DNA of 64,000 bases, from contig NZ_MLFK01000005.1 in the NCBI RefSeq assembly GCF_001879205.1, positions 496,001 to 560,000 of the forward strand. The letters are read 5' to 3'. Every line of letters begins with the position of its first letter. The first letter of the stretch is position 1. This DNA is from Flavobacterium johnsoniae (GTDB lineage Bacteria > Bacteroidota > Bacteroidia > Flavobacteriales > Flavobacteriaceae). A program made the translations under genes and the position numbers. Below, piece after piece: positions 1,334-14,822 of this stretch. The notes under the pieces were generated by a model that did no database searches, had not been told where the DNA came from, and saw only the letters and a program-made list of their open reading frames with translations.

Positions 1334-2515
1334 TTATGATTTAAATGCTGGAATTCCAGTTACATCCATTCCGGTAATCAATAAATGTATGTCGTGTGTT
1401 CCTTCGTAAGTGATCACACTTTCGAGGTTCATCATGTGACGCATAATAGAGTATTCGCCTGTAATTCCCATTCCGCCTAACATTTGTCTGGCTTCGCGGG
1501 CGATATGAATTGCCATATCGACATTGTTGCGTTTTGCCATCGAAATTTGAGCTGTTGTTGCTTTTCCTTCGTTTCTTAAAACACCTAAACGCCAGGTTAA
1601 TAATTGTGCTTTTGTGATTTCTGTAATCATTTCAGCAAGTTTTTTTTGCTGCAATTGTGTGCCTCCAATTGGTTTTCCAAACTGGATTCTTTCTTTTGCA
1701 TAGCGCAAAGCAGTATCGTAACAGTCCATTGCAGCGCCTATTGCTCCCCAGGCAATTCCGTATCGGGCAGAATCTAAACAGCCAAGTGGCGCACCTAAGC
1801 CGGATTTGTTTGGTAAAAGATTTTCTTTTGGAACTTTTACATTATCAAAGATCAATTCTCCGGTTGCAGAGGCACGAAGAGACCATTTATTGTGTGTTTC
1901 CGGAGTTGTAAAACCTTCCATACCACGTTCTACGATTAAACCATGAATTCGGCCTTCTTCATTTTTTGCCCAAACTACAGCAATGTCAGCAAAAGGAGCG
2001 TTTGAAATCCACATCTTGGCACCATTTAAAAGATAATGGTCTCCCATATCTTTAAAATTGGTAATCATGCTTCCGGGATCAGAACCGTGATCTGGCTCTG
2101 TTAAACCAAAACATCCCATATATTCTCCGGTTGCCAGTTTTGGCAGATACTTCATGCGTTGTTCTTCATTTCCGTATTTCCAGATAGGATACATTACTAA
2201 AGAAGATTGTACAGATGATGTTGATCTTACACCAGAGTCACCGCGTTCAATTTCCTGCATAATTAACCCGTAAGAGATCTGGTCTAAACCTGCACCGCCA
2301 TATTCTACCGGAATATACGGCCCAAATCCTCCAATTTCTCCAAGCCCTTTTATGATTTGTTTTGGAAATTCTGCTTTTTGAGCATACTCTTCTATAATAG
2401 GAGAAACTTCTCTTTTAACCCATGCACGTGCAGATTCGCGAACTAATTTATGTTCATCTGTTAATAAATCGTCAAGGTTGTAGTAATCTGGGGCTTGAAA
2501 TAAGTCTGGTTTCAT
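1334..2515 (-). CDS. Acyl-CoA dehydrogenase, glutaryl-CoA dehydrogenase type
   Basis: 393 residues from the ATG at 2515; a longer frame exists, but the extra N-terminal residues come from the promoter region and are not family-like. It would oxidise and decarboxylate glutaryl-CoA to crotonyl-CoA with FAD in lysine/tryptophan degradation. Seen: RGDSGVRSTSS (about 91-101), characteristic of glutaryl-CoA dehydrogenases, the FGLTEPDHGSDPG flavin-loop motif, and ITYEGTHDIH near the end with the catalytic Glu at about residue 371. Length equals the family norm. No electron-transfer flavoprotein or thiolase genes lie next to it. Another short-chain acyl-CoA dehydrogenase is the alternative, less likely given the Arg/Ser motif. 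Confidence 0.85.
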   Translation of the reverse strand: MKPDLFQAPDYYNLDDLLTDEHKLVRESARAWVKREVSPIIEEYAQKAEFPKQIIKGLGEIGGFGPYIPVEYGGAGLDQISYGLIMQEIERGDSGVRSTSSVQSSLVMYPIWKYGNEEQRMKYLPKLATGEYMGCFGLTEPDHGSDPGSMITNFKDMGDHYLLNGAKMWISNAPFADIAVVWAKNEEGRIHGLIVERGMEGFTTPETHNKWSLRASATGELIFDNVKVPKENLLPNKSGLGAPLGCLDSARYGIAWGAIGAAMDCYDTALRYAKERIQFGKPIGGTQLQQKKLAEMITEITKAQLLTWRLGVLRNEGKATTAQISMAKRNNVDMAIHIAREARQMLGGMGITGEYSIMRHMMNLESVITYEGTHDIHLLITGMDVTGIPAFKS

Positions 2516-2536
2516 TTTTGATAGTTTTTTGCAAAA

Positions 2537-2568
2537 CAAATTTACGTAATAAAAATATAACAAAACAA
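2537..2568 (-). promoter_or_regulatory. Promoter of the acyl-CoA dehydrogenase gene
   Basis: Minus strand TTG (2566-2568), 21-nt spacer, TAAATTTG (2537-2544), matching the Bacteroidota -33/-7 pattern. The -7 element ends 21 nt before the ATG at 2515, which supports that start over the longer frame that would begin within the promoter region. Confidence 0.55.
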
Positions 2569-2654
2569 AGCTAAATTGTTATAATTTCATACATTAGTTA
2601 AAAAATAATCACAAATAAGGTAAATTAATTTTAGTTTATTGATAATATATAAAC

Positions 2655-2662
2655 TAATTTTG
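2655..2662 (+). promoter_or_regulatory. Candidate -7 element of the TPR/AraC gene
   Basis: TAATTTTG, an exact TAnnTTTG, 23 nt before the ATG at 2686. No TTG is seen at the usual spacing upstream, so support is the -7 box only. Confidence 0.35.
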
Positions 2663-2685
2663 AGATTCCAAAAAACATACATTGA

Positions 2686-4440
2686 ATGAGGCTGATCATC
2701 TCTTTTTTACTTTTTTTTGTTGTAAACATGGGTTTTTCTCAACAAAACAGAGAATTAACAGAACAAGAGTATTTACTATTGCAGGATAAGATTCGACTGA
2801 ATTTGAATGCTGATAGAGATAGCGCTGCAATATATGCAAATGAAATGGCAAAGTCCGGGAACTATAAACATTTGGCTTTTGCAAATGTAGCAATTGCTTA
2901 TTTACTTCAATTAAAAGACGATACGGCAAAATCTAAGGAAAAGTATAATCTGGCATTTAAATACCTGGATAAAATGCCTGAGTCTAAAGACAAAACGCAG
3001 CTTACCGCTTACTTGTATAATTATGGCGGGATGATTGAGGGAGCAAGAGAGAACTACAGTAAAGCTCTTGAAAACTATCAAACAGGAATGAAAATCTCTA
3101 CTAAGATTGGAGATATAATTCAGATAGCAAAATTTAAAAGTAATATTGCAATTATAAATGAAGCGATTGGGAATTATCAATTGGCCATAAAAAATTTAAA
3201 GCAGTTAAATGTTTTTCTTGATAATAATGAAAACTATTACACAAAGGAGCAATTTAATACCATAAAGAGCAGTAATAATCTCACTTTGGCTGCATCATAC
3301 GAAGGTTGGTATATGAAAAACCAATCTTCAATGTATTTATTAGATTCTGCTGCCTACTTTTATAAAAAAACGGTTTCATATTCTCAAAATTTACCCATTA
3401 ATAATGTTAAGGCAAAAATTAGTCTTGGAAACGTTTATTCTATAAAAAAAGATTATCAGAACGCTGAGAAAACCTATTATAACATTGTTTTTTATGCAAA
3501 ACAGAATAATTTGAACAGAGAATATAAAATTGCCAATTATAATTTAGGCAACTTATATTATGAAACAAAAAAGTATGATAAGGCATTGGTGTTTTTTAAA
3601 AAGGTTGATTCCGTTTCAGAGATCGATAATCAAAAAGATGAAAGCTTTTTAAAATCAAATTATTATCAGGCTAAAATATACAATATATATAATGAGCCGC
3701 AGGAAGCATTTAAACATTCTAAAATATACCTGGATAATTATGAGAAATCTGAGGCTAAACTCAATAATGAAGCTTTAGAAGTAAATTATAAGCTGGGTAC
3801 AGGAAATCTAAGCGACGAAATGGTCGTGATCCAGGAAAAATATGAAAAAGATGTTTTGCTAAATAAAGCATTAAAAGTATTTTACGTATTACTGGTAGTG
3901 GGAATTGTCTTTTTATTGATCAAAAATATAATAGACAAGAATAAAGCACATAAAAAAATGAATGCTTTAATTGAAGAATTTAAAGCAAATCTTGAAAAGA
4001 AAAACAATGCCGAAGCTGAAATTGCACAGACATCGACAGCTGTTGAATTAGAAGAAGTAAGTGTTAAAAAAGAGAGTATAACCCTTAGTATTGACGAAGC
4101 TAAGGAGAATAAAATAGTTGAAAAATTACTGGCACTTGAAAGTAAATTAGAATATTTAAATTCTGATTTTACATTGCAGCATGTGGCTAAAAAAATCAAA
4201 ACCAACACGACTTATTTGTCTTATGTTGTAAATAAACGATTCGGGAAATCATTTGGTGAATATTCGAACGAGCTTAAAATTAATTATGTAATCAATGAAA
4301 TGATTACCAACCATATGTATCGTAAATATTCAACACAAGCGATAGCGGAAAGTGTAGGTTTTAAAAATGCCGTATCGTTTGCTAAATCATTTCGCAAAAG
4401 AACTGGAGTTTCTCCAGCTCAATTTGCGAATAACATTTAA
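2686..4440 (+). CDS. TPR-repeat membrane regulator with C-terminal AraC-type HTH
   Basis: 584 residues. A signal-like N-terminus (hydrophobic residues 3-18 ending FSQQN) is followed by about 350 residues of tetratricopeptide-like helical pairs with repeated Tyr/Ala/Asn pattern, one membrane helix near residues 395-412 (VFYVLLVVGIVFLL), a Lys/Glu-rich linker and an AraC/XylS-type DNA-binding domain over roughly the last 110 residues (LQHVAKKI to GVSPAQF). This architecture is frequent in flavobacteria and suggests a one-component regulator with a periplasmic sensor and a cytoplasmic HTH. The gene is convergent with the minus-strand peptide genes and is the only regulator near the peptide export cluster. 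A role in controlling it is inference from position. Confidence 0.8.
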   Translation: MRLIISFLLFFVVNMGFSQQNRELTEQEYLLLQDKIRLNLNADRDSAAIYANEMAKSGNYKHLAFANVAIAYLLQLKDDTAKSKEKYNLAFKYLDKMPESKDKTQLTAYLYNYGGMIEGARENYSKALENYQTGMKISTKIGDIIQIAKFKSNIAIINEAIGNYQLAIKNLKQLNVFLDNNENYYTKEQFNTIKSSNNLTLAASYEGWYMKNQSSMYLLDSAAYFYKKTVSYSQNLPINNVKAKISLGNVYSIKKDYQNAEKTYYNIVFYAKQNNLNREYKIANYNLGNLYYETKKYDKALVFFKKVDSVSEIDNQKDESFLKSNYYQAKIYNIYNEPQEAFKHSKIYLDNYEKSEAKLNNEALEVNYKLGTGNLSDEMVVIQEKYEKDVLLNKALKVFYVLLVVGIVFLLIKNIIDKNKAHKKMNALIEEFKANLEKKNNAEAEIAQTSTAVELEEVSVKKESITLSIDEAKENKIVEKLLALESKLEYLNSDFTLQHVAKKIKTNTTYLSYVVNKRFGKSFGEYSNELKINYVINEMITNHMYRKYSTQAIAESVGFKNAVSFAKSFRKRTGVSPAQFANNI

Positions 4441-4476
4441 TTAAAATAATTTGATTTTATTAAAATCAGTATGGAT

Positions 4477-4656
4477 TTATCCAACTGATCCCGTTCCTCC
4501 TTTAATAGGATCTACATCATTAGCAGCGGCATTGGCATTGACAGCCGGAGGAGGAGGTGCAATTGTAGTATCATCGCCTCCACGAATTGATTTTTGTTGA
4601 TTTCTATCTATTTTTTCTGCTTTGAAATTTTCTATATTTAATTTGATGTTTTTCAT
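4477..4656 (-). CDS. Double-glycine leader peptide precursor, conserved VDPIKGGTGSVG tail (paralogue 1)
   Basis: 59 residues, too short for standard ORF calling. The leader ENFKAEKIDRNQQKSIRGG ends in Gly-Gly at residues 26-27, the cleavage signature of C39 peptidase exporters. The core is proline- and alanine-rich (IAPPPPAVNANAAAND) and ends in VDPIKGGTGSVG, which recurs exactly in the neighbouring paralogue at 4890-5027. There are no cysteines, so it differs in kind from the plus-strand peptides. The tail carries Asp, Lys, Thr and Ser that could be ester- or thioether-linked, but no ATP-grasp, LanB or LanM enzyme lies in the window. Related leaders are known from Bacteroidota natural-product precursors. 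The product and its modification are unknown. Confidence 0.75.
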   Translation of the reverse strand: MKNIKLNIENFKAEKIDRNQQKSIRGGDDTTIAPPPPAVNANAAANDVDPIKGGTGSVG

Positions 4657-4768
4657 GATTTTTTAATATTTAAAAGTATATTTGTGCGGTAAAAGCTATA
4701 TTCCATCCAAAGTCTAACTACACCTTTTTAAATCGGATTTTTCATCTTTGAGAATAGTAATATAATTA

Positions 4769-4846
4769 TTATCGCAAATTGATTTTTGCTAATTTTTCTG
4801 CCTTGAAGTTTTCCATATAAATTTTCCATCTTTTGTAATTAGACAT
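4769..4846 (-). pseudogene. Frameshifted remnant of a third leader peptide gene
   Basis: From the ATG at 4846 the frame reads MSNYKRWKIYMENFKAEK and then goes off pattern to a stop at 4769. One frame over, the same DNA reads KISKNQF, which continues the leader consensus (EKISKNQQK in the paralogue). Loss of one A in the run at about 4793-4797 explains it: five A residues are present on the minus strand where six would keep the frame. No Gly-Gly or VDPIKGGTGSVG tail follows in any frame, so the core is also lost. It sits between two intact paralogues on the same strand. Confidence 0.65.
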
Positions 4847-4889
4847 TTTAAATTTATAGCTGTATACTTACAAAGTGTTTTTTTGATTT

Positions 4890-5027
4890 TTATCCAACTG
4901 ATCCGGTTCCACCTTTAATTGGGTCTACTTCGGGAGTTGTTTCCTCTCCTCCTCTTACCATTTTTTGTTGATTTTTAGATATTTTTTCATCTTGGAAATC
5001 TTCGAATTTTAGTTTCATATTTGCCAT
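4890..5027 (-). CDS. Double-glycine leader peptide precursor, conserved VDPIKGGTGSVG tail (paralogue 2)
   Basis: 45 residues from the ATG at 5027. Leader FEDFQDEKISKNQQKMVRGG ends in Gly-Gly at 26-27; the core is only 18 residues, EETTPE plus VDPIKGGTGSVG. Compared with paralogue 1, the leader and the last 12 residues are kept and the Pro/Ala stretch is missing, so the tail is evidently the constrained part. An exact TAnnTTTG box (5057-5064) lies 29 nt upstream. The Gly-Gly leader suits the C39 exporter encoded at 8.4 kb, though these peptides lie on the opposite strand. Function unknown. Confidence 0.75.
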   Translation of the reverse strand: MANMKLKFEDFQDEKISKNQQKMVRGGEETTPEVDPIKGGTGSVG

Positions 5028-5056
5028 CTCTTTATGTGTTAGGGTTACTGATATGT

Positions 5057-5064
5057 CAAAACTA
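5057..5064 (-). promoter_or_regulatory. Candidate -7 element of peptide gene 4890-5027
   Basis: Minus strand TAGTTTTG, exact TAnnTTTG, ending 29 nt before the ATG. No -33 TTG at usual spacing. Confidence 0.4.
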
Positions 5065-5287
5065 CAGAAAATGAAAAGCGTTTGATCGAGAATCGGGTTT
5101 TGAGCTTTCTGTTGAAAAAAAAATTAGCATAATTAATTGATATTCAGCGGTATAAATCTAAGACTATGCCTGCTATAATTTATAAATTGTATGTAGTATA
5201 ATTAATAAAATGTATGCTATTGACGTTTTTTTTTCAATAAAAACCCCAATATTTGCATTGTAATTATGATTTAAAAGCGTCCCAAAA

Positions 5288-6847
5288 ATGTTAAAACTTA
5301 TTCAAAAATTTCTTCAAATAAACAGATACTCGGAAGTTAAAAATGAGTTTAAGGATTTGTTTTTATCTCATCCAAATTATCCAAGCTTATTTGCGATTAC
5401 AGATTCATTCGATTTATTGTCTGTAGAAAATGCGGCTATAAGAGTTCCTAAGGAACAGATCGTGGATTTGCCGTCAAACTTTCTGGCTTATTTTAAAGAT
5501 GAATTGACATTGGTTGAAAAGGCTAAAAATTTTGTTAGAATCAGTACGATAAAAAAAGGAATTCAAAAAATATCATACGAGAAGTTTCTTTTAGACTGGA
5601 ATGGTGTTATTGTGGCGATTGAGCCAAATAATGTTGTGGCAAGAGAAAATTTAAAAGTTGAATTGAGCTGGTTAAAATATTTGGTGCCTTTTGTGCTTTT
5701 AGGAGGTTTGTCCTTTTTTTATAATTCGTATGACCTTTTTAGCTTTACGTTCTTACTTATATCTTCTTTAGGATTAATTGTCAGCATTTTGATTGTTCAG
5801 GAGAAACTCGGATTTAAAAATGGTATCATTTCTAAATTTTGCAGTTTAAGCACTAACTCATCTTGTAATTCGGTAATTAATTTTAATGAGAACTACGATA
5901 ATAAATGGATAAGTTTTTCAGATCTGCCATTATTGTTTTTTGGAGCAAGTTTTATAGCCGTTTTGGTTCAGCCTTTAAGCTCGTCTGTTTTTATTGGTTT
6001 TTTGAGTTTATTGGCTATACCTATAATAGTATCTTCAATGTGGATTCAAAAATTTGAGCTGCAAAAATGGTGTGTTATGTGTTTAATGGTTTCATTCTTG
6101 ATTTTTACTCAAAGCTTAATATGGTTTTCATCAGACTTGTTTACGTTAAGTTTTAGTTTCAATGAAGTTTTCCCATTTTTATTCTCATTGGTTCTTCTTG
6201 TTCCAATTTGGTTTGTAATAAAATCTGTGGCTAAAAATGTATTAGACAATGAAAACTCGTTAAAAGAGCTGAAAAAATTTAAAAGAAATTATTCACTGCT
6301 TAATTTCTTATCTAAAAAAGTGCCTCTTACAAATGGATTTGAAGATTTAAGAGGAATCAATTTTGGTAACAGAAATGCAGTAGTGAAATTATCAATAATT
6401 ATTAGTCCAAGCTGTGAGCATTGTCATAAAACATTTCAGGATGCCTTTGATTTGGTTTTAAAATTTCCGGAAAAAATATTTTTAAGCGTTTTATTTAATA
6501 TCAATCCAGAGAATGTAGACAATCCTTATAAAGCAGTCGTTGAGCGTCTTTTAATAATAAATAGACTAACACCAGGAAAAACTGTAGAAGCAATTTCTGA
6601 CTGGCATATAAAAAAGATGAGTTTAAAGAAATGGTTAAAGAAATGGCATGTAGATTCAGTGAGCATGATGATTAACCAGGAAATAAACAAACAATATGAA
6701 TGGTGTGCTAAAAATGATTTTAATTATACACCGGTAAAAATTGTAAATGAAAAATTGTTTCCTAATGAATATGAATTAAGTGAATTGAAATATTTCTTGA
6801 ATGATTTTGTTGAAGAAAAAGAAACAATCCTTGAAAAGACGGCCTAA
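5288..6847 (+). CDS. Membrane VKOR-thioredoxin fusion with degenerate C39-like N-domain
   Basis: 519 residues. Residues 1-115 resemble a C39 peptidase fold (YPSLFAITD, and KKGIQKISYEKFLLDWNGVIVAIE) but lack the catalytic Cys-His-Asp. About six membrane helices follow (130-146, 149-170, 211-230, 233-251, 262-282, 293-313). The middle four match the vitamin K epoxide reductase bundle with its two Cys pairs, C185/C193 and C262-x-x-C265. Residues about 365-500 form a thioredoxin-like domain with C376-E-H-C379. Such proteins pass electrons to quinone and make disulfides in substrates outside the inner membrane. It is the first plus-strand gene of the peptide cluster, and the five precursors downstream all have even cysteine counts. 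A role in oxidising those peptides is inference, but well supported by context. Confidence 0.88.
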   Translation: MLKLIQKFLQINRYSEVKNEFKDLFLSHPNYPSLFAITDSFDLLSVENAAIRVPKEQIVDLPSNFLAYFKDELTLVEKAKNFVRISTIKKGIQKISYEKFLLDWNGVIVAIEPNNVVARENLKVELSWLKYLVPFVLLGGLSFFYNSYDLFSFTFLLISSLGLIVSILIVQEKLGFKNGIISKFCSLSTNSSCNSVINFNENYDNKWISFSDLPLLFFGASFIAVLVQPLSSSVFIGFLSLLAIPIIVSSMWIQKFELQKWCVMCLMVSFLIFTQSLIWFSSDLFTLSFSFNEVFPFLFSLVLLVPIWFVIKSVAKNVLDNENSLKELKKFKRNYSLLNFLSKKVPLTNGFEDLRGINFGNRNAVVKLSIIISPSCEHCHKTFQDAFDLVLKFPEKIFLSVLFNINPENVDNPYKAVVERLLIINRLTPGKTVEAISDWHIKKMSLKKWLKKWHVDSVSMMINQEINKQYEWCAKNDFNYTPVKIVNEKLFPNEYELSELKYFLNDFVEEKETILEKTA

Positions 6848-6907
6848 TATTAGATTAATGAATGATTTAATATTGAAAGAATACCCCAAAACGAAAAATT
6901 AAGAGCT

Positions 6908-7084
6908 ATGTTAAAAAATATTTTAAATCTGGAAGGATCACAAGAAATAAGTGCCAGCGAACAAAAAACGATAGTTGGTGCCAATATTAAAGAGATTACG
7001 GCTAAATGTGATTCGTGGAACTCTATGATATACGAAGATTGTGCTGAGTATTATCCGGAGCTGACTTATGCTAATGCAAATTAA
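6908..7084 (+). CDS. Small cysteine-containing leader peptide, variant GA site
   Basis: 58 residues. The leader MLKNILNLEGSQEISASEQK matches the other plus-strand precursors, but where they have Gly-Gly this one has Gly-Ala (residues 24-25, TIVGAN). C39 peptidases also accept GA or GS, so it may still be cut. The core is acidic and aromatic with two cysteines (C34, C45), enough for one disulfide. It begins 60 nt after the VKOR gene and is probably co-transcribed with it. No homology to a named bacteriocin was recognised. Confidence 0.7.
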   Translation: MLKNILNLEGSQEISASEQKTIVGANIKEITAKCDSWNSMIYEDCAEYYPELTYANAN

Positions 7085-7170
7085 AAAACTGCATAATAAT
7101 TGAATGAATAAATTTAGTCAGATTGATGCAGAATTGTATTAGTATGATTGAATCAAAATAATACCCGGTT

Positions 7171-7362
7171 ATGTTAAAGAAAATTTTGAGTCTCGAACAT
7201 GCTCAGCATATTAGCAAGAGCGAACAAAAAACAATAAAGGGTGGAATTCCTGAGTGCTGGGTTTATGCAATAGAGGCAGGATGTGTGCTGATCCCGAGTG
7301 GAGAAGTTTGTCCGGTTAATACAGAAGCAGGAATTTGCGATACAAATCGACTTTGCTGCTAA
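7171..7362 (+). CDS. Double-glycine leader peptide, six-cysteine core
   Basis: 63 residues. Leader MLKKILSLEHAQHISKSEQK then TIKGG with Gly-Gly at 24-25. The 38-residue core carries six cysteines (29, 38, 47, 56, 62, 63), spaced 9, 9, 9, 6 and 1, and ends in Cys-Cys. An even number and regular spacing suggest up to three disulfides, which fits the VKOR-thioredoxin gene upstream and the C39 exporter downstream. Secreted antimicrobial or signalling peptide is the likely role; the core resembles nothing I can name. Confidence 0.8.
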   Translation: MLKKILSLEHAQHISKSEQKTIKGGIPECWVYAIEAGCVLIPSGEVCPVNTEAGICDTNRLCC

Positions 7363-7737
7363 TTAAGTAGAAAAATTATTTGAAAGTAATATACGATAAA
7401 GCCTTTTTAAAATTTAGTCATGTTTTTTTTAATTTGTAGGCGCTCGATCGTGGAACATTGAGCAAATTATCCCAACATTGATGATTGGTGTCGGGATTCT
7501 CAGGAAAATTGGTCACTGGGTCGGTTTTATTTGGTTAGGGCTGATCAAGTGCCATCTCCTAGAGAAATTGGTATTACTGAAATATATTGAATATAAGAGA
7601 GGATTTATTCTCTCTTTTTTTTATTCAAAAATAAAATAGTAATAAAAATACTACTCTTATGCTTTTTTAATAAAAGACGGAAGCTTCAACTGTCTTAAAA
7701 TGATTGAAGTATAAACAAATCAAAAAACACCAAAATT
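7363..7737 (+). other. Gap with a possible broken peptide gene
   Basis: No intact gene. From about 7430 one frame reads VGARSWNIEQIIP, which recalls the end of a leader (compare TIVGAN in the 6908 gene). The neighbouring frame, from 7462 to the stop at 7590, reads as a plausible hydrophilic peptide (ANYPNIDDWCRDSQENW and onward). No recognisable MLKKIL-type leader precedes either. A degraded precursor with a frameshift is possible but unproven. The rest of the gap holds the terminator at 7596 and AT-rich DNA before the next precursor. Confidence 0.3.
7596..7622 (+). terminator. Intrinsic terminator inside the peptide cluster
   Basis: Stem AGAGAG / CTCTCT (7596-7601, 7610-7615), 8-nt loop, then eight T. 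It would separate the VKOR and first two precursor genes from the next two precursors. Confidence 0.6.
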
Positions 7738-7902
7738 ATGTTAAAGAAAATTTTAGAATTAAAAGGAACTCAAGAGTTAAGCAGAAAACAACAACAATTA
7801 ATCAGAGGTGGAGTTGCTTGTGGTCCCGGACTACCTGCGTGCAGAAGTGGTTTTCACTGTGTTATTCCGGATGAAGGCGAAGGATATTGCAAAAGCAATT
7901 AA
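7738..7902 (+). CDS. Double-glycine leader peptide, four-cysteine core
   Basis: 54 residues. The leader (MLKKILELKGTQELSRKQQQ then LIRGG, Gly-Gly 24-25) is nearly the same as in the neighbours. The 29-residue core has cysteines at 28, 35, 41 and 51 and a PDEGEGYC segment echoed as HPGEGETC in the next gene, so these two cores may share ancestry. Four cysteines allow two disulfides. It follows the terminator at 7596 and so should have its own promoter, though no TAnnTTTG box is seen directly upstream. Confidence 0.8.
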   Translation: MLKKILELKGTQELSRKQQQLIRGGVACGPGLPACRSGFHCVIPDEGEGYCKSN

Positions 7903-7969
7903 TTTGCTGGTTTGTGTAAGCAGCAATTCGTTTTATTAATTTATTTAACATCAAACAAAAAATCAAATT

Positions 7970-8161
7970 ATGAAAAAATTAAAAAGCTTAATTGGAGTTG
8001 AAGTTTTAAGTGCTAATGAAAAGAAAAATATTAATGGCGGAGGTCCGGGCATAGAAGCTTGTTATTGCCCGGGAACAGGTATTTTTGCCGGCATTATACA
8101 TCCTGGTGAAGGCGAAACTTGTGCCTCAGTAATTCAGGAAAACTGTCCTTTAGATTCTTAA
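7970..8161 (+). CDS. Double-glycine leader peptide, four-cysteine core with CxC
   Basis: 63 residues. A variant leader (MKKLKSLIGVEVLSANEKKN) leads to INGG at 21-24. The core is glycine-rich with cysteines at 31, 33, 51 and 59; C31-Y-C33 is a tight pair. The segment HPGEGETC parallels PDEGEGYC in the previous core. A clear terminator hairpin follows. It is the last precursor before the exporter gene 221 nt downstream. Secreted peptide; activity unknown. Confidence 0.8.
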   Translation: MKKLKSLIGVEVLSANEKKNINGGGPGIEACYCPGTGIFAGIIHPGEGETCASVIQENCPLDS

Positions 8162-8185
8162 AAGGTTTTATCAAATAAGTATTAA

Positions 8186-8224
8186 AAGAGCTTTGCTATT
8201 TGTTTAGCAAGGCTCTTTCTTTTT
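8186..8224 (+). terminator. Intrinsic terminator after the peptide gene 7970-8161
   Basis: Stem AGAGCTTTGCTA / TAGCAAGGCTCT with a short TTTGT-type loop and following T-run. It sets the small peptide genes apart from the exporter genes. Confidence 0.65.
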
Positions 8225-8382
8225 GTAAGATTAAATTGATTTACTATTAAAATTAAATATTGGATTTATAAAAGAATTAAATGCTGGTAAAAATCCAATT
8301 TGTATTAAGTTATTTAAATGATTTTTTACTTTTTTTAAGAATTTTTGTATAATATTGCTAGAAACAAACCCAAATACTAGAA

Positions 8383-10575
8383 TTGAAAAAATTCACGCAT
8401 TACAAACAGGCAGATTTTAAAGATTGCGGCCCTACGTGTTTAAAAATAATTGCTAAGCATTACGGCAAAACGATCACTATTCAGGAATTACGCGACAGCA
8501 GTGAGACTACTCGCGAAGGAAGCAATCTGCTTTTTTTGAGTGATGCCGCCGAGAAAATTGGTTTTAGAACGCTGGGCGTAAAACTAAGTGAAGAAAGATT
8601 AGAAGAAGCGCCATTGCCATGTATTCTGCATTGGAATAAAAATCATTACGTTGTACTTTACAAAATAAAAAAAGGGAAGTATTATATTTCAGACCCTGCT
8701 TTTGGTTTGCTAGAATATAACAAACAGGAATTTCTTAAATTCTGGATTGGTAATAATGCTGATGAGTTTACTCAGGAGGGAGTTGCATTATTGATAGAAG
8801 CTACGCCAAAATTTTTTCAGTCGGATTTTGATAAAGAAGATCAGAAAGGAATTGGTTTTGGTTTATTGTCGCAATATGTGCTTCGTTACAAGTCATTTCT
8901 TATTCAGCTAAGCATCGGGCTGCTGGCCAGCAGTTTATTACAGCTTATATTTCCGTTTTTAACGCAGAGTATCGTCGATGTTGGAATCCAGAACCAAAAT
9001 ATTCATTTCATATACCTGATTCTTTTTGCGCAGTTGTTTTTATTTGCCGGAAGAACTGGTCTTGAACTTATACGAAGCTGGATATTACTCCATCTTTCTA
9101 CTAGAATCAACATTTCACTAATTTCAGATTTCTTCATTAAGTTAATGAATCTTCCTATTTCATTTTTTGATGTGAGAATGACAGGTGATATTATGCAGCG
9201 AATAAACGACCACCGCAGGATCGAGAAAATTTTAACAACATCATCGCTCAATGTTTTGTTCTCCGTAATTAACATGTTTGTAATGGGAGCGGTTCTGGCA
9301 TATTTTAATCTCAAGATATTTTTAGTTTTTTTCGCAGGAAGTCTTCTTTATTTTGGATGGATTACTCTATTCTTGAAACGAAGAGAAGTTCTGGATTATA
9401 AACGTTTTGCTGAGGTTTCAAATGAACAGGGAAAAGTCATGGAACTTATTAACGGAATGCAGGAAATCAAGCTCCATAATGCCGAAAAACAAAAGCGCTG
9501 GGGATGGGAATATGTACAAGCGAGGCTTTTTAGGGTTTCGATAAAAGGTTTGGTTTTAGAACAGTCGCAAACCATTGGTTCTTCGGTAATTAATGAATTG
9601 AAGAATATCTTTATTATATTTTTATCGGCAAAATTAGTAATCGACGGTTCTATTACACTTGGTATGATGCTGGCGATCAGCTCGATTGTGGGGAGTTTAA
9701 ACGGACCCGTAGTGCAGCTTATAGAATTTGTCCGCGAACTTCAGGATGCCAAAATCTCATTGGCACGACTATCTGAAATTCATGAAAAAGAAGATGAAAC
9801 CCAGCAGGAAGTACATCAGAGCAATGATGTTCCGTATGATTCAGATATTGAAATAAAAAATATTTCGTATCGCTATTTAGGATCAGATATTCCGGTATTA
9901 GATAATTTGAGTTTAACTATTCCGGCCAATAAAGTAACAGCGATAGTAGGCGTGAGCGGCAGCGGTAAAACGACACTGATGAAACTGCTTCTTAAATTTT
10001 ACGAACCCGAGAAAGGGGAAATCAACATTGGCAGTTCGCAGCTTAAAAATATTTCTCAACGAGCCTGGCGGTCTAATATTGGTGCTGTCATGCAGGAAGG
10101 TTTTATTTTTAGCGATACTATTGCCAATAACATTGCCTTTGGAGTTGATAAAATTGATAAAGAAAGATTGCTCTATGCAGCAGATGTAGCTAATATTAAG
10201 CAGTATATAAGTGAGCTCCCTTTAGGATATAATACCAAAATTGGTGCTGAAGGACTCGGAATGAGTACCGGACAAAAACAGCGATTGTTGATTGCAAGAG
10301 CTGTTTATAAAAACCCCGAGATATTATTTTTTGATGAAGCAACTTCTGCCTTAGATGCCAACAACGAAAAAGAGATTATGCAGAAACTGGGCATTTTCTT
10401 TAAAAATAAAACAGTAATTGTAATTGCCCACCGATTGAGTACCGTGATGAATGCTGACCAGATTGTTGTTTTGGATAAAGGGAAAATTATCGAAATTGGA
10501 AATCATGCCGCTTTAGTAGAACGAAAAGGGAATTATTTTGAACTGGTTAAAAATCAATTGCAGTTAGGAAGTTAA
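8383..10575 (+). CDS. Peptidase-containing ABC exporter (C39 domain, TM, NBD)
   Basis: 730 residues starting at a TTG; a TAG stop lies in frame just upstream and the TTG places the catalytic motif correctly. The N-terminal C39 peptidase is intact: Q9 (oxyanion), C15 in DCGP, H88 in NHYVVLY and D104 in SDPA. A six-helix membrane domain lies at about 165-450 and an ATPase domain after about 490: Walker A GVSGSGKTT near 523, signature MSTGQKQR near 627 (the usual LSGGQ changed), Walker B ILFFDEATSALD near 647, and the switch His in IAHRLS near 683. Such exporters cut leaders after Gly-Gly and move the core across the inner membrane with ATP. The precursor genes on both sides are its evident cargo. 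The HlyD gene begins 2 nt later. Confidence 0.95.
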   Translation: MKKFTHYKQADFKDCGPTCLKIIAKHYGKTITIQELRDSSETTREGSNLLFLSDAAEKIGFRTLGVKLSEERLEEAPLPCILHWNKNHYVVLYKIKKGKYYISDPAFGLLEYNKQEFLKFWIGNNADEFTQEGVALLIEATPKFFQSDFDKEDQKGIGFGLLSQYVLRYKSFLIQLSIGLLASSLLQLIFPFLTQSIVDVGIQNQNIHFIYLILFAQLFLFAGRTGLELIRSWILLHLSTRINISLISDFFIKLMNLPISFFDVRMTGDIMQRINDHRRIEKILTTSSLNVLFSVINMFVMGAVLAYFNLKIFLVFFAGSLLYFGWITLFLKRREVLDYKRFAEVSNEQGKVMELINGMQEIKLHNAEKQKRWGWEYVQARLFRVSIKGLVLEQSQTIGSSVINELKNIFIIFLSAKLVIDGSITLGMMLAISSIVGSLNGPVVQLIEFVRELQDAKISLARLSEIHEKEDETQQEVHQSNDVPYDSDIEIKNISYRYLGSDIPVLDNLSLTIPANKVTAIVGVSGSGKTTLMKLLLKFYEPEKGEINIGSSQLKNISQRAWRSNIGAVMQEGFIFSDTIANNIAFGVDKIDKERLLYAADVANIKQYISELPLGYNTKIGAEGLGMSTGQKQRLLIARAVYKNPEILFFDEATSALDANNEKEIMQKLGIFFKNKTVIVIAHRLSTVMNADQIVVLDKGKIIEIGNHAALVERKGNYFELVKNQLQLGS

Positions 10576-10577
10576 TT

Positions 10578-11873
10578 ATGGCAGAAGATAAAGAAACATT
10601 CGAATTAAGAAGTGAGGAAGTTCAGGACATTCTCACCAAAGTACCAAACTGGATGATCCGCTGGGGAACTCTCCTTATTTTTGCTATTATATTAATGCTG
10701 TTTTTTGTTTCCTGGTTTATCAAATATCCGGATGTGGTCAATACTGAAATTGTAATTACAACCAATATTCCGCCAGAGAAAATTGTCTCAAAATCATCCG
10801 GAAGAATTGAAGCTATTTTAGTAAAAAACAAAGCAATAGTTCCTAAAAACAGTATACTGGCTATAATTGAAAATACAGCAAGGTATCAAGATGTATTTTT
10901 ATTAAAAAGTATTGTTGATCATTATAATATAAATGATCCAAAAACAACGTTTCCATTTTCAAAACTAAAAAATACACAATTAGGGGAAATCGAAAGTGCG
11001 TATGCGGTTTTTCAGAAAGATTATCAGGCTCAGGAATTAAATCATGACCTGCAGCCTTTTGCAATCGAAAACAGAGCGCAGGTTTCGGAGAAAATTCAAA
11101 TAAAAGAAAGATTAGAGATTTTGCAGCAGCAAAAAGTAATTAATGAAAGCGAATTACAGCTTCAAAAAAATGAAATTGCCCGCTTTGAAGCATTATTCAA
11201 CAAGGGAATTATTTCGGCTCAGGAAATGGAAGCAAAGAAATTAGGATTTCTTCAGGCGCAAAAGAATTACAAGAGCCTTTTGTCGTCTATTTCTCAGTTA
11301 AGATCCTCTTTGATAGATAATACAAAATCGAGTCAGAATTCGCAGATAAACAGCACTAAAGAAGAAGTTAACCTGGGAAGAAACATGGCGCAGTCATTTT
11401 ATCAGCTGAAAAAAGTGATAAAAGACTGGGAGCTGGCTTATGCGTTAAAATCGTCTATAAGCGGAAAAGTTACTTTTTTGCAGGTTTGGACAGAAAACCA
11501 AACCATAAATATAGGAGATAACGTTTTTTCTATCATTCCGGACGCAAAAAATGGTTTTATCGGCAAAGTAAAAGCACCGGCGTTAAATTCCGGAAAAATA
11601 AAAACCGGACAACGGGTAAACATTCGTCTGGCAAACTTTCCCGACAGGGAATTTGGTGTTTTAAAAGGCAAAATTCAAAACATTTCGCTGGTTCCGGATA
11701 AAGACGGAAATCTATTGATAGATGTTGCACTGCCAAATGGACTGCTGACTTCTTACAACAAACAAATTGTTTTTCAACAGGAAATGAAAGGAGGTGCCGA
11801 AATTGTAACCGAAGATTTACGATTAATCGAAAGAATTTTATATCAGTTCAAAAGTATTTTTGAGCAGGTTTAA
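10578..11873 (+). CDS. HlyD-family adaptor of the peptide exporter
   Basis: 431 residues, two nt after the ABC exporter, so one operon. A cytoplasmic N-terminus is followed by one membrane helix (about 31-50, GTLLIFAIILMLFFVSWF), a beta segment, a long coiled coil (about 150-260, rich in Gln, Lys and Glu) and a second beta-barrel part (AYALKSSISGKVTFLQVW and the GQRVNIRLANFPD motif). It would bridge the exporter to an outer-membrane TolC-like channel. No TolC gene is in the window, so a general one is probably used. Length is normal. Confidence 0.92.
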   Translation: MAEDKETFELRSEEVQDILTKVPNWMIRWGTLLIFAIILMLFFVSWFIKYPDVVNTEIVITTNIPPEKIVSKSSGRIEAILVKNKAIVPKNSILAIIENTARYQDVFLLKSIVDHYNINDPKTTFPFSKLKNTQLGEIESAYAVFQKDYQAQELNHDLQPFAIENRAQVSEKIQIKERLEILQQQKVINESELQLQKNEIARFEALFNKGIISAQEMEAKKLGFLQAQKNYKSLLSSISQLRSSLIDNTKSSQNSQINSTKEEVNLGRNMAQSFYQLKKVIKDWELAYALKSSISGKVTFLQVWTENQTINIGDNVFSIIPDAKNGFIGKVKAPALNSGKIKTGQRVNIRLANFPDREFGVLKGKIQNISLVPDKDGNLLIDVALPNGLLTSYNKQIVFQQEMKGGAEIVTEDLRLIERILYQFKSIFEQV

Positions 11874-12028
11874 ACTCTTATTGAGGTGTTTTAAAATGGA
11901 AGATTTGTAAAGTAAATTACTATTGAAATTAAATAAAAATGTTAAAAATATTCTTGCGCAAGATTAGACATAAAGCTCAAGTGTCTTTAATTTATTGAGT
12001 AATAAACTAAACAAAAAAACTTTAAATT

Positions 12029-12208
12029 ATGTTAAAAACAATTTTAAAACTGACAGGAGTTGAAGAACTGACAAAGAAACAGAAACAAACCATTTCGGGT
12101 GGAGATTCGAGGTATTCAGAAGCAACAGGTTATTGTGTTAATCCAAGCCCGACTTGTGGAGGCGCATATCCTGTGCAATATCCAGGAAGCTGGTGCTGTC
12201 AGAAATAA
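12029..12208 (+). CDS. Double-glycine leader peptide downstream of the exporter, four cysteines
   Basis: 59 residues. Leader MLKTILKLTGVEELTKKQKQ then TISGG (Gly-Gly 24-25), the same family as the precursors before the exporter. The core has cysteines at 36, 43, 56 and 57 and ends SWCCQK; the terminal Cys-Cys recalls the six-cysteine peptide at 7171. It lies 155 nt after the HlyD gene and ends in a strong hairpin, so it belongs to the same cluster. Likely a disulfide-bonded exported peptide of unknown activity. Confidence 0.82.
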   Translation: MLKTILKLTGVEELTKKQKQTISGGDSRYSEATGYCVNPSPTCGGAYPVQYPGSWCCQK

Positions 12209-12218
12209 ATTTTATTTA

Positions 12219-12246
12219 ATAGAGGGAAAGCTTGCTTTCTCTCTAT
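12219..12246 (+). terminator. Hairpin between the peptide gene and trmN6 (bidirectional)
   Basis: Stem AATAGAGGGAAAGC / GCTTTCTCTCTATT with one G-T pair and a TT loop. It lies between convergent genes and may serve both; T-runs are weak on the plus side. Confidence 0.6.
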
Positions 12247-12250
12247 TGTA

Positions 12251-12958
12251 TTAAAACTTTAAATAAAAATCTTTCGTCAACTCAATATATTCCGGAGTAT
12301 AAACATGTCTGTCGATTTCGATTGTCAATTCGTCGATTTCGATTTGGGTAGTTTCATTTCGGCTGAAAGCCAATAAGCTTCTTTTAATTGCGGCTGTTGG
12401 AGTTCCTTTTACGCGGGTAATTTTTGTTGGATATAATTCGGCTTCTTTTGCTAAGGCGATAAATTTTGCTTCTTCTTTATAAGGCAGAATTATAGCAAAT
12501 ATTCCATTTTCAGACAAAAGTAAATCGGCAGCCTCGACTAATTCTTCAAAAGGCATTGCATCTTGAAAACGAGCTAAATCCCGCTGTTCATTTTCGGTTT
12601 TATAATCTTCGGCATAAAAAGGTGGATTCGAAACAATTAAATCGTATTCGTCTTCCGGTTCTTCTATAAATTCATCTAAACCAGCATGAAAACAAAACAA
12701 ACGATCTCCCCAAGGCGAATTTTCGAAATTTTCTACTGCTTGTTCATAAGCATCTTCGTCAATTTCAAGAGCGTCAATTTGTTCTGCATTTGTTCTTTGC
12801 GCAAGCATTAAAGCAATAATTCCAGTTCCTGCGCCAATGTCTAAAACGCTAAACGGATTGTGATTTACCGGAACCCAAGAGCCTAGTAAAACACCATCAG
12901 TACCCACTTTCATAGCACAGCGATCTTGATGAATTGAAAACTGTTTGAATTGGAACAT
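12251..12958 (-). CDS. trmN6: tRNA1(Val) adenine-37 N6-methyltransferase-like
   Basis: 235 residues. The start FQFKQFSIHQDRCAMKVGTD is characteristic of the YfiC/TrmN6 family. A Rossmann SAM-binding motif VLDIGAGTGIIALMLAQR lies near 40-57, the acidic strand ALEIDEDAYEQA follows, and the N6-adenine catalytic motif NPPF appears near residue 110. The enzyme methylates A37 of a valine tRNA in E. coli. It lies 78 nt after rimM on the same strand and is probably the third gene of the ribosome-biogenesis operon. The alternative is a related methyltransferase with another RNA substrate. Confidence 0.88.
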   Translation of the reverse strand: MFQFKQFSIHQDRCAMKVGTDGVLLGSWVPVNHNPFSVLDIGAGTGIIALMLAQRTNAEQIDALEIDEDAYEQAVENFENSPWGDRLFCFHAGLDEFIEEPEDEYDLIVSNPPFYAEDYKTENEQRDLARFQDAMPFEELVEAADLLLSENGIFAIILPYKEEAKFIALAKEAELYPTKITRVKGTPTAAIKRSLLAFSRNETTQIEIDELTIEIDRHVYTPEYIELTKDFYLKF

Positions 12959-13036
12959 GTCTAGTTTATAATTTAGATTAAAGGTTTAGTTTCAGAAGAA
13001 AAACTGAATACTTAAAACTACAAACTGAATACTCTT

Positions 13037-13561
13037 TTAAAGGTACATCTCAATAAGACCTTCCGGAAGATTCATGATAACCTTTTTGTTTTCTCGGTCG
13101 ATTTTTACAAGGAAATGATCGATCATCGGAATCAGCATTTCGACTTCGCCATTTAAAACCTCAAAAAGAGGCTGGGCCGTACTGTCGTTTACGGCAGCAA
13201 TTTTTCCGAAGACACCTAAGCGTTGGTCTTCGATTTCAAATCCGATAACTTCGTGGAAATAAAATTTATTGCCCGAAAGTTTTGGAAGCATGCTTAGCGG
13301 CAGGTAAATTCCATTGCCAATAAGAGCATCTGCATCTTCCTCGGTATTTACATCTTCAAAACGAATTCTAAGGAAATCGTTTTTGTGTAATGAACTTGTT
13401 TCAATAAAAAAAGGAACCAAGTGTTTGTTGCATTCAACAAACACTGATTCCAGATTTTCGTATAACTCAGGTTCGTCTGTGTCTAAATAAGCCAGAACTT
13501 CACCTTTGAAACTAAATTTTTTAGCGATTTTACCTAAATAAAAACATTCTTCTTTACGCAT
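13037..13561 (-). CDS. rimM: Ribosome maturation factor RimM
   Basis: 174 residues. The N-terminal RimM barrel starts ECFYLGKIAKKFSFKGEVLAYL, and a C-terminal PRC-like barrel contains YFHEVIGFEIED and the end motif EVEMLIPMIDHFLVKID. RimM binds S19 and helps 30S head assembly. It is 15 nt downstream of rpsP, the usual pairing. In many bacteria trmD follows; here trmN6 does. Confidence 0.95.
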   Translation of the reverse strand: MRKEECFYLGKIAKKFSFKGEVLAYLDTDEPELYENLESVFVECNKHLVPFFIETSSLHKNDFLRIRFEDVNTEEDADALIGNGIYLPLSMLPKLSGNKFYFHEVIGFEIEDQRLGVFGKIAAVNDSTAQPLFEVLNGEVEMLIPMIDHFLVKIDRENKKVIMNLPEGLIEMYL

Positions 13562-13576
13562 TCTCGCTAAGTAAAA

Positions 13577-14143
13577 TTATGCTTCAGTTGTTTCGTTATT
13601 CTCTTCAGCAGCAGGAGCTTCTTCAGTAGATGCTTCTACTTCAGCAACTTCTTCTTCAACTGCAGGAGTTGCAGCAGCGATAGCATCAGCTTCAGCCTGA
13701 GCTGCAGCAGCTAAACGTTTAGCATTAACTTCTTTTTCTGCTTTTAAAGCTTTAGCTCTAGCATCAGCTTGCGCTTTTGATAAACCATCTTTTTTAGCAT
13801 CAACTTTTCCAGCTTTAGCCTCTAACCAAGCAGCTAATTTTGCGTCAGCTTGCTCTTGAGTTAAAGCTCCTTTACGGATACCTCCATCAAGGTGGTGTTT
13901 CAATAAAGCACCTTTGTAAGAAAGGATAGCTCTAGCAGTATCAGTTGGTTGTGCACCATTGTGTAACCATTTAACTGCGCTGTCAAGGTTTAACTCAACA
14001 GTTGCTGGGTTTGTGTTTGGATTGTAAGTACCGATTTTCTCTAAGTATTTACCATCTCTTTTTGAGCGTGCATCTGCAGCTACAACCCAGTAAAAAGGTT
14101 TTCCTTTTTTACCGTGTCTTTGTAATCTAATTTTTACTGACAT
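13577..14143 (-). CDS. rpsP: 30S ribosomal protein S16 with long Ala/Glu tail
   Basis: 188 residues. Residues 1-85 are a normal S16 (MSVKIRLQRHGKKGKPFYWVV, then GTYNPNT and DTARAILSYKGA). About 100 extra residues follow: first Lys/Ala-rich, then strongly acidic (EEEVAEVEA, EEAPAAEENNETTEA). Standard S16 is about 80-100 residues; extended forms occur in Bacteroidota. First gene of the rpsP-rimM-trmN6 run, with a TATCTTTG box upstream. Confidence 0.95.
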   Translation of the reverse strand: MSVKIRLQRHGKKGKPFYWVVAADARSKRDGKYLEKIGTYNPNTNPATVELNLDSAVKWLHNGAQPTDTARAILSYKGALLKHHLDGGIRKGALTQEQADAKLAAWLEAKAGKVDAKKDGLSKAQADARAKALKAEKEVNAKRLAAAAQAEADAIAAATPAVEEEVAEVEASTEEAPAAEENNETTEA

Positions 14144-14192
14144 AATCTTATGATTAAATTTTGAGGTACTCGACCTCCGTTAATTAAGGGCG

Positions 14193-14200
14193 CAAAGATA
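14193..14200 (-). promoter_or_regulatory. Candidate -7 element of the rpsP operon
   Basis: Minus strand TATCTTTG, exact TAnnTTTG, 50 nt before the rpsP ATG; no -33 TTG seen. Confidence 0.4.
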
Positions 14201-14305
14201 TAATTTTTTTATGAATTATTCGTTTTAAAGGCATTAATTATCTTTAGGATTGTTTTTTAGCATTTTTTTGACTTTTATTTCCTCACATTTTATCGCGTAA
14301 TGCAA

Positions 14306-14313
14306 TACTTTTG
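14306..14313 (+). promoter_or_regulatory. Candidate -7 element of the lipoprotein gene
   Basis: TACTTTTG, exact TAnnTTTG, 17 nt before the ATG at 14331. A GTG that would extend the frame lies at its last base, which rules out the longer start. Confidence 0.5.
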
Positions 14314-14330
14314 TGTTAAATTTATTTTCT

Positions 14331-14822
14331 ATGAAAAAATACTTTTTCTTTTTGTCTTTTTTATTCTTGTTGACATCTTGTACAGAAGATGTTAAGTTTA
14401 ATAATCCAGCATTTCAGACTTTGAAGAATAATGTTTTTTGGAGGGCACAAAGTTACAGTGCTTTTTTTAATACAAATGGGAGTGTGGTAATTGAAGGGAA
14501 TTTAGGGTATGAAAAAATTACTCTGCATACTCAATCTTCTGAAAAACAAACTTATGTTTTAGGTCTTGATGCTTCTTCTACAGCGTCTTATGAGAATGCA
14601 CTTCCTGCTGACCTGTCTTTTTTTTCAACTGGAACAAATGCCGGGAGCGGTCAGATAGTGATCACAGAATATGATTCTGAAAATAAAACTATTTCCGGAA
14701 CATTTAAATTTACCGCAGTAAATGAAGATGAAACTGATACTGAAAATCCTAAGATTAATTTTACGGAGGGTGTTTTCTATAAAGTTCCAATTAAAGTAAG
14801 CGATATCGTTCATCATATTTAA
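14331..14822 (+). CDS. Small lipoprotein, DUF6252-like
   Basis: 163 residues from the ATG at 14331. Signal peptide with lipobox LLTSC, lipid-attached Cys at residue 17, followed by a beta-rich domain with repeated Thr/Ser/Gly strands (YGYEK-like, SGQIVITEYDSENKTISGTF). The SGTFKFTA motif near the end is typical of the family annotated DUF6252 in flavobacteria, as I recall it. Anchored in a membrane facing the periplasm or surface; function unknown. Confidence 0.75.
   Translation: MKKYFFFLSFLFLLTSCTEDVKFNNPAFQTLKNNVFWRAQSYSAFFNTNGSVVIEGNLGYEKITLHTQSSEKQTYVLGLDASSTASYENALPADLSFFSTGTNAGSGQIVITEYDSENKTISGTFKFTAVNEDETDTENPKINFTEGVFYKVPIKVSDIVHHI

Follow-up and report, generated by a model that had tools for sequence, protein, structure and literature searches.

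Here we analyze a peptide locus in a 64,000-nucleotide stretch of Flavobacterium johnsoniae DNA, called the window below, by comparing it with related loci from other genomes. The locus encodes a regulator (named REG here), seven small peptides with bacteriocin-type leaders, a fusion protein containing a VKOR domain, an ABC exporter with a C39 peptidase and an HlyD-type adaptor. We will argue that it is probably a producer of disulfide-bonded bacteriocins under the control of a peptide pheromone, with REG, a TPR-transmembrane-AraC protein, as the receptor.

The locus and the comparison set

The gene order is REG (plus strand), two small genes (minus), the VKOR fusion (plus), four small genes (plus), the C39 exporter (plus), HlyD (plus) and one more small gene (plus). 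REG lies at 2686-4440 and is identified by Pfam, by its structure model and by its position upstream of 93 of 130 VKOR copies. The two minus-strand genes, S1 (4477-4656) and S2 (4890-5027), encode cysteine-free peptides with Gly-Gly leaders, and between them is the remnant of a third S leader (4769-4816, minus strand), which reads MENFKAEKLAKINLR and then meets a stop. The VKOR fusion (5288-6847) is followed on the same strand by B1 (6908-7084; two cysteines, family of 2), B2 (7171-7362; six cysteines, the commonest B family with 57 loci), B3 (7738-7902; four cysteines, family of 5) and B4 (7970-8161; four cysteines, 18 loci). The C39 exporter (8383-10575), the HlyD-type adaptor (10578-11873) and B5 (12029-12208; four cysteines, family of 5) complete the set.

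A sequence-only reading of this DNA had described the seven small frames, the VKOR fusion, the exporter and the adaptor, and all of them are present as described. It had, however, drawn the system from 4477 to 12208; REG belongs to it as well, and a DNA repeat and a structured RNA element (7401-7622), both discussed below, had been missed.

Among 398 genomes of the genus, 117 have a match to the VKOR fusion at E≤1e-60. The comparison set consists of 126 such regions and the window, i.e. 127 loci, and frames with Gly-Gly leaders were listed in each. The match rows left out are two G084:C14 fragments, G336:C34 and the second copies in G290, G312 and G111. The small frames are conserved in relatives, so that the sequence-only reading came through this check, and the gene content of the locus can be regarded as established by comparison.

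Two classes of peptides

The peptides divide according to strand and position. Class S, on the minus strand in the gap between REG and VKOR, has 220 members in 87 loci, of which 215 have no cysteine and five have one. Class B, on the plus strand downstream of VKOR, has 351 members, and the number of cysteines is 2, 4, 6 or 8 in 343 of them and odd in eight. As controls, the same finder gave no candidates on the plus strand of the REG-VKOR gap and a single one on the minus strand of the VKOR-ABC span. Sequence comparison thus establishes the cysteine split, and a single uniform family of disulfide peptides is ruled out by the cysteine-free S cores. The earlier description of the locus as a system that makes, oxidises and exports disulfide peptides fits the five plus-strand products, but not the two on the minus strand, which have no cysteine and are signal-like. 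It had left open for all seven whether they are bacteriocins or signals; the comparative data divide them, the plus-strand products resembling bacteriocin cargo and the minus-strand ones a signal. One further correction concerns B1, the leader of which ends in Gly-Ala.

The leader is 27 residues long in 211 of the 220 S peptides and 25 in 322 of the 351 B peptides. Both classes have L/I at position −12, Q at −7, K at −6 and mostly I/V at −4, and these common residues are consistent with a single C39 exporter serving S and B. The same likeness can be read differently, namely as that of seven bacteriocins, two of which lack cysteine, in a cluster that REG merely regulates in response to another periplasmic cue. 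REG-type regulators are common and most were seen without an adjoining peptide, which also agrees with this. S is, on the other hand, absent from all 35 REG-less VKOR copies that are not cut by a contig end at S, while B peptides are present in 22 REG-less loci. In addition, the S paralogs of a genome are kept alike in their cores, the opposite of the diversity of the B cores, which form 102 families, 53 of them singletons. We therefore regard an all-bacteriocin locus as unlikely.

A profile search of the B cores gave no named bacteriocin family above the cut-off. A large set of B genes is found in locus L019 (genome G004), with 17 different genes between VKOR and ABC (10148-14613) and one after HlyD (18574). 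The unmatched cores, together with the missing immunity gene, could suggest that S and B form one signalling system in which no peptide kills. Such diversity of B cores within a genome and their even cysteine numbers are, however, as in the Bacteroidales bacteriocin clusters covered by the accessible text of one report (PMC6671954). According to the same text, no immunity gene is evident in bacteroidetocin producers, which are themselves sensitive to the toxin that they make, and the lack of such a gene here is consequently no argument against toxins. A purely signalling locus is thus quite improbable, and the B peptides would rather be expected to kill.

The regulator and its association with S

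Pfam identifies HTH_18 (E=1e-12) and TPR_12 (E=2e-10) in REG. The structure model (confidence score, pLDDT, 77.4) has helical repeats at residues 26-363, a long helix at 375-438 and then the helix-turn-helix (HTH) part. The sequence has two hydrophobic segments, a helix at the N-terminus and a stretch near 396-416, and the model has long helices at these places. From the two hydrophobic segments, the TPR part is predicted to be periplasmic and the HTH part cytoplasmic. The modelled TPR part resembles peptide-binding TPR proteins, including RapI and the NprR-NprX complex, but is matched more closely by LGN.

S peptides were found in 87 of the 93 VKOR copies with REG, as compared to none of 35 without it, two contig-cut copies being set aside. 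The six REG copies without a counted S have minus-strand frames with S-like leaders that, by eye, end other than in Gly-Gly, and in the two copies set aside (L102 and L112) the contig ends just past the S genes. The 130 copies in this count (93 with and 37 without REG) do not include L024-L028, with phmmer scores below 230. L164 (score 157, threshold 300) and L130, in which REG is cut by the edge of the retrieved region, were counted as lacking REG. Among the 35 REG-less copies, L119, L155 and L157 are on short contigs with 77, 1738 and 295 upstream bases, respectively, and another six are second copies, with REG present elsewhere in the locus.

It could also be considered that the S peptides are accessories of the exporter complex, or decoys with a protective role for the producer, and that the link to REG reflects joint inheritance. 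The S cores are small, hydrophilic and rich in Gly, Pro and Asp, and they adjoin REG, as would be expected in that case. REG-less loci, however, keep VKOR, the exporter and B peptides without any S, and the core distances given below track the REG ectodomain better than the DNA-binding part, although the latter is encoded nearer to S. Of the explanations considered, we find this one the least probable.

The wider distribution of REG was also surveyed. A search of 395 genomes of the order gave matches in 43 at E≤1e-40. Outside the family, a small minus-strand frame of the Gly-Gly type directly follows REG in L301-L303, but with cysteines in the cores, and no such frame follows it in L304 and L305. 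In L309, L316 and L317, from another family of the order, a minus-strand frame with a Gly-Gly leader is found just upstream of other TPR-AraC regulators, the core having a single cysteine in one case and none in two. This arrangement is possibly a second type of peptide-regulator pairing.

The repeat between the divergent genes

Alignment of the S-VKOR intergenic regions exposed a 43-bp tandem direct repeat (5174-5216, plus strand) that starts 114 bp upstream of VKOR and consists of two 20-bp half-sites with a period of 23. Sites of AraC-family regulators are typically tandem direct repeats, and we propose this one as the binding site of REG. With up to 2 mismatches and within 300 bp upstream of VKOR, a 17-bp half-site is found in 90 of the 93 copies with REG and in one of the 35 without it, while it is absent from all 112 regions upstream of ABC. 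The comparison thus establishes that both S and the repeat are associated with REG. In the whole genome, the exact 20-bp pattern occurs at two places only, both within 5174-5216; when up to 3 mismatches are allowed, there are 50 places, as compared to 29 for a reversed control.

In front of VKOR, a conserved AATATTTG (5248-5255, plus strand) agrees at 7 of 8 positions with the Bacteroidota −7 consensus TAnnTTTG, and TAGTTTTG in front of S2 (5057-5064, minus strand) fits this consensus. An element of this type faces the S side in 61 of the 87 VKOR-proximal S genes. With a single site between the divergent genes, REG would be able to activate the operon and its own signal alike. Enriched k-mers upstream of the S genes were also considered, but were dropped, as by eye they belong in part to the coding tail of the adjacent S gene.

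S cores and the REG ectodomain

The S paralogs of one locus tend to have the same tail. S1 and S2 of the window both end in VDPIKGGTGSVG, despite several synonymous differences. A common stretch of 6 or more residues (median of the paralog pairs) was found in 39 of the 51 loci with more than one S gene, as compared to 79 of 3741 pairs between loci. For example, DTIRGNGKGS is present in all five S paralogs of L067, and IDPSKGDGKG in those of L072 and L074, twice within one L074 precursor. The ratio of nonsynonymous to synonymous differences within a locus is 0.56 for the cores and 1.61 for the leaders, in sums over paralog pairs that count old duplications more than once. Between close species (264 pairs), it is 1.62 for the cores and 1.91 for the leaders. 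Common tails within most genomes are thus established by comparison, and the ratios indicate that selection holds the copies alike inside a genome while the common sequence drifts between species. This is what would be expected if one receptor must read all copies.

The ectodomain is the most variable part of REG, and the DNA-binding part is nearly fixed. The mean pairwise distance is 0.47 for the ectodomain, 0.30 for the DNA-binding part and 0.12 for ABC. In a 60-locus clade, the entropy per position is ca 0.8-1.5 bits for the greater part of the ectodomain, as compared to 0.04-0.38 bit at residues 461-584. Between the window and L058, VKOR is 7% apart, the DNA-binding part 11% and the ectodomain 37%, and the tails differ.

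The core distance was found to track the ectodomain distance, with r=0.21 for 77 loci and 0.18 for 60 (p=0.002, the lowest value that this test can give), when VKOR, ABC, HlyD, the DNA-binding part and the leader are held constant. The 77 loci are those of the 87 with complete ABC and HlyD, the other ten being omitted. The "DNA-binding part" in this test contains a variable linker, and Mantel-type tests remove shared ancestry only in part. The covariation can be considered as established in numbers by the comparison, with residual correlations that are modest and an ancestry that is only partly removed.

Oxidation and export

The C39 protease of the exporter is intact, as the sequence-only reading had stated, with the catalytic triad Cys15/His88/Asp104 in 107 of 107 aligned exporters. 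The VKOR-thioredoxin fusion is likewise as described, in that six cysteines are kept in 126 of 126 aligned proteins (two VKOR pairs and the CxxC of a DsbA/ScsC-like, thioredoxin-fold domain), but its N-terminal C39-like domain had been overlooked. This domain lacks the part with the catalytic cysteine and is matched by Pfam at E=0.0016, below the Pfam cut-off, over profile positions 45-132. With hhalign, E is 1e-4 and the probability 57. The structure model has low confidence in the N-terminal domain, and the VIA-align list spans only residues 332-513, so that the assignment as C39-like rests on sequence profiles. There are also some PCAT1 rows for the fusion in Foldseek, with E near 1e-3.

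A side observation concerns the oxidase of another F. johnsoniae genome (L063, G159), where the VKOR match extends only to about residue 491 of 519 and has two stop codons in the aligned part. On this basis, the protein may be shortened in this species.

A structured RNA in the operon

At the DNA level, 72 of the 127 loci have kept the plus-strand segment 7401-7622, which in most of them follows a B gene by 30-44 nt. It is present in all 70 loci with a VKOR score above 700 and in 2 of the 57 below, and is single-copy in this genome. Its head has 71 occurrences in 69 of the 398 genomes, all 69 being among the 117 with the VKOR fusion. Stops and shifts break the frame in relatives while the DNA is conserved, and a decayed peptide gene at 7401-7640 was accordingly rejected. 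No Rfam match was found within 2500-13000 at E≤1.

The folding beats each of 200 shuffles (z=−3.67). Seventy of the 72 loci are in the alignment and 58 in the covariation tests. Changes on both sides were found in 22 of 60 pairs, a number reached in none of 500 shuffles (mean 13.6). The cells with such changes amount to 138. Shuffles give 45.5 and slid versions 6-19, the latter being at a disadvantage because the fold was derived from the window sequence. Further pair types are no more numerous than in shuffles (58 vs 56.4), and three one-pair helices of the tested fold have pairing in only 13-39% of the cells. The 3′ end is a covarying terminator hairpin. The RNA structure can thus be taken as established by comparison.

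The 20 bases at 7411-7430 are identical in 70 of the 72 loci. This fixed stretch shows complementarity to translation starts that are rich in A. The start codon of a gene for a secreted-type protein of 128-130 residues is complementary to it at 17 of 18 positions in this genome (G000:C11:241508-241525, L320) and in 10 of 14 relatives tried (L353-L357, L359-L361, L363 and L364). The likeness of the protein to the Por secretion tail domain is weak and below the cut-off (E=1.4e-4). The 18-mer at the start codon is found in 39 of 62 RNA-bearing genomes and in 2 of 296 others, but close orthologs (at least 70% identity) occur, except in one genome, in the same clade, so that the comparison is confounded with clade. 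Complementarity alone was rejected as a target criterion, since it gives 69 genome matches (up to 3 mismatches) and the reversed control 99, i.e. no enrichment. The putative pairing with the start of this gene is therefore a lead, not evidence of pairing, as to what the RNA may do.

Proposed mechanism

On the basis of these results, we consider pheromone-controlled production of disulfide-bonded bacteriocins to be the probable role of the locus. The C39 transporter would cleave the leaders from the cysteine-free S peptides and export the products, and the adjacent membrane-bound REG would perceive this signal through its periplasmic TPR domain. REG would then bind the repeat at 5174-5216 and activate the VKOR-peptide-RNA operon in one direction and the S genes in the other. 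The non-catalytic C39-like domain of the VKOR fusion would hold the cargo leaders, and the fusion would oxidise the cysteine-paired cores before their export by C39-ABC/HlyD.

A number of observations weigh against this proposal. As to the receptor, the signal has to return to the periplasm, which is a presumed step, and no TolC-like gene was found in the locus. The closest structural match of the TPR part is LGN, which is no pheromone receptor. Four of the 12 other REG-like matches of the genome were inspected and none has an adjoining Gly-Gly peptide, which contradicts the idea, considered and abandoned, that S accompanies every TPR-AraC regulator. As to the site, L155 has the half-site, yet no REG within its 1.7 kb upstream. 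The long common stretch is missing among the S paralogs in 12 of the 51 loci. With fewer controls, HlyD correlates with the core as well (0.245 for 77 loci, 0.062 for 60), and so does the C39-like region of VKOR, with 0.219 in each of the two sets, and the leader distance tracks the ectodomain in the 77 loci (0.188), although not in the 60 (0.016). The ectodomain of L063 is 10% from that of the window with a core distance of 0.51, to be compared with 37% and 0.49 for L058; by eye, the L063 core has DPIKGG in common with the window. Finally, REG and S adjoin each other, and joint transfer can therefore mimic coevolution.

If the proposal is correct, the locus would introduce a receptor class, one DNA target site, an RNA output and species-specific signals with sequences deducible from genomes, and this in a group to which the laboratory species F. 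johnsoniae belongs. Close relatives with a changed ectodomain but an unchanged DNA-binding domain and repeat would constitute a natural test of signal specificity. The presence of one exporter among many unlike peptides would also be accounted for, some being cargo and some the switch.

Comparison with known systems

The B system resembles the bacteroidetocins (class IIf), which, in the accessible text of the report, have a Gly-Gly leader, paired cysteines, a thiol oxidoreductase, a C39 ABC exporter and no evident immunity gene (PMC6671954). Their leader has 15 residues there, as compared to 25 for B, and their cluster encodes a five-transmembrane protein (PMC6671954). There is none here, and no other frame of at least 110 residues is among the open reading frames listed for 4440-12250. 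Unlike the bacteroidetocins, the present locus has several products, the C39-like/VKOR fusion, HlyD, REG, the S peptides and the RNA, and the word "regulator" is absent from the text of that paper (PMC6671954).

As to the circuit, Gram-positive Gly-Gly peptide inducers (ComC/BlpC/EntF type) are, like S, cysteine-free; they exit via the bacteriocin exporter and induce bacteriocin genes, both of which we propose also for S. The peptides here are indeed encoded together with a C39 exporter and bacteriocin-type genes, and NCBIfam hits of the ComC/BlpC/EntF type are sub-threshold. The Gram-positive inducers are read by histidine kinases with response regulators, whereas the sole regulator here is a one-component TPR-transmembrane-AraC protein with no kinase domain. 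The agr-type loci likewise encode a structured RNA in a peptide-signal operon, as proposed here, but no AgrB-like or kinase gene is present in our locus, and the RNA, peptide and receptor differ.

In the RRNPPA receptors (Rap, NprR and kin), the TPR part is cytoplasmic, as given in the accessible text of one article (PMC9765709), while in REG it is predicted to be periplasmic, with a membrane helix joining it to the AraC domain. In the modelled superhelix, RapI and NprR match well, although LGN does so better. These receptors and the Gram-positive inducers each match half of the proposed circuit logic. The nearest published idea that we found is in a survey of Bacteroidales ribosomally synthesized and post-translationally modified peptides, the accessible text of which notes TPR-domain genes near two clusters and mentions a TPR role in pheromone response elsewhere (PMC10352776). 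In searches of open-access papers, with most subscription papers and all of bioRxiv outside their scope, we found no description of this circuit, nor of a pheromone circuit with a TPR-AraC receptor in Bacteroidota.

More tentatively, and with somewhat less than even confidence, we suggest that the locus is a Gram-negative counterpart of agr and Blp. Pheromone sensing would here be periplasmic and carried out by a one-component TPR-transmembrane-AraC receptor. The core and the ectodomain would form exchangeable pherotype modules, with a fixed DNA-binding domain and repeat. The output would be disulfide bacteriocins and a small RNA, the fixed unpaired stretch of which may be aimed at translation starts such as that of the secreted 128-residue protein.

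Neighbourhood and a second locus

The same genome has a second locus (L025, G000:C13:96000-115500) without REG or S peptides, which encodes a VKOR fusion (28% identity), a C39-ABC exporter, HlyD and cysteine peptides with Gly-Gly leaders. The locus in the window is flanked by acyl-CoA-dehydrogenase-like and methyltransferase-like frames (named by reading the frames), and close relatives have the same neighbours. The nearest VKOR-fusion loci are from Flavobacterium, strain HSC-32F16 being 93% identical over the fusion, and REG is 90% identical to proteins named as F. johnsoniae.

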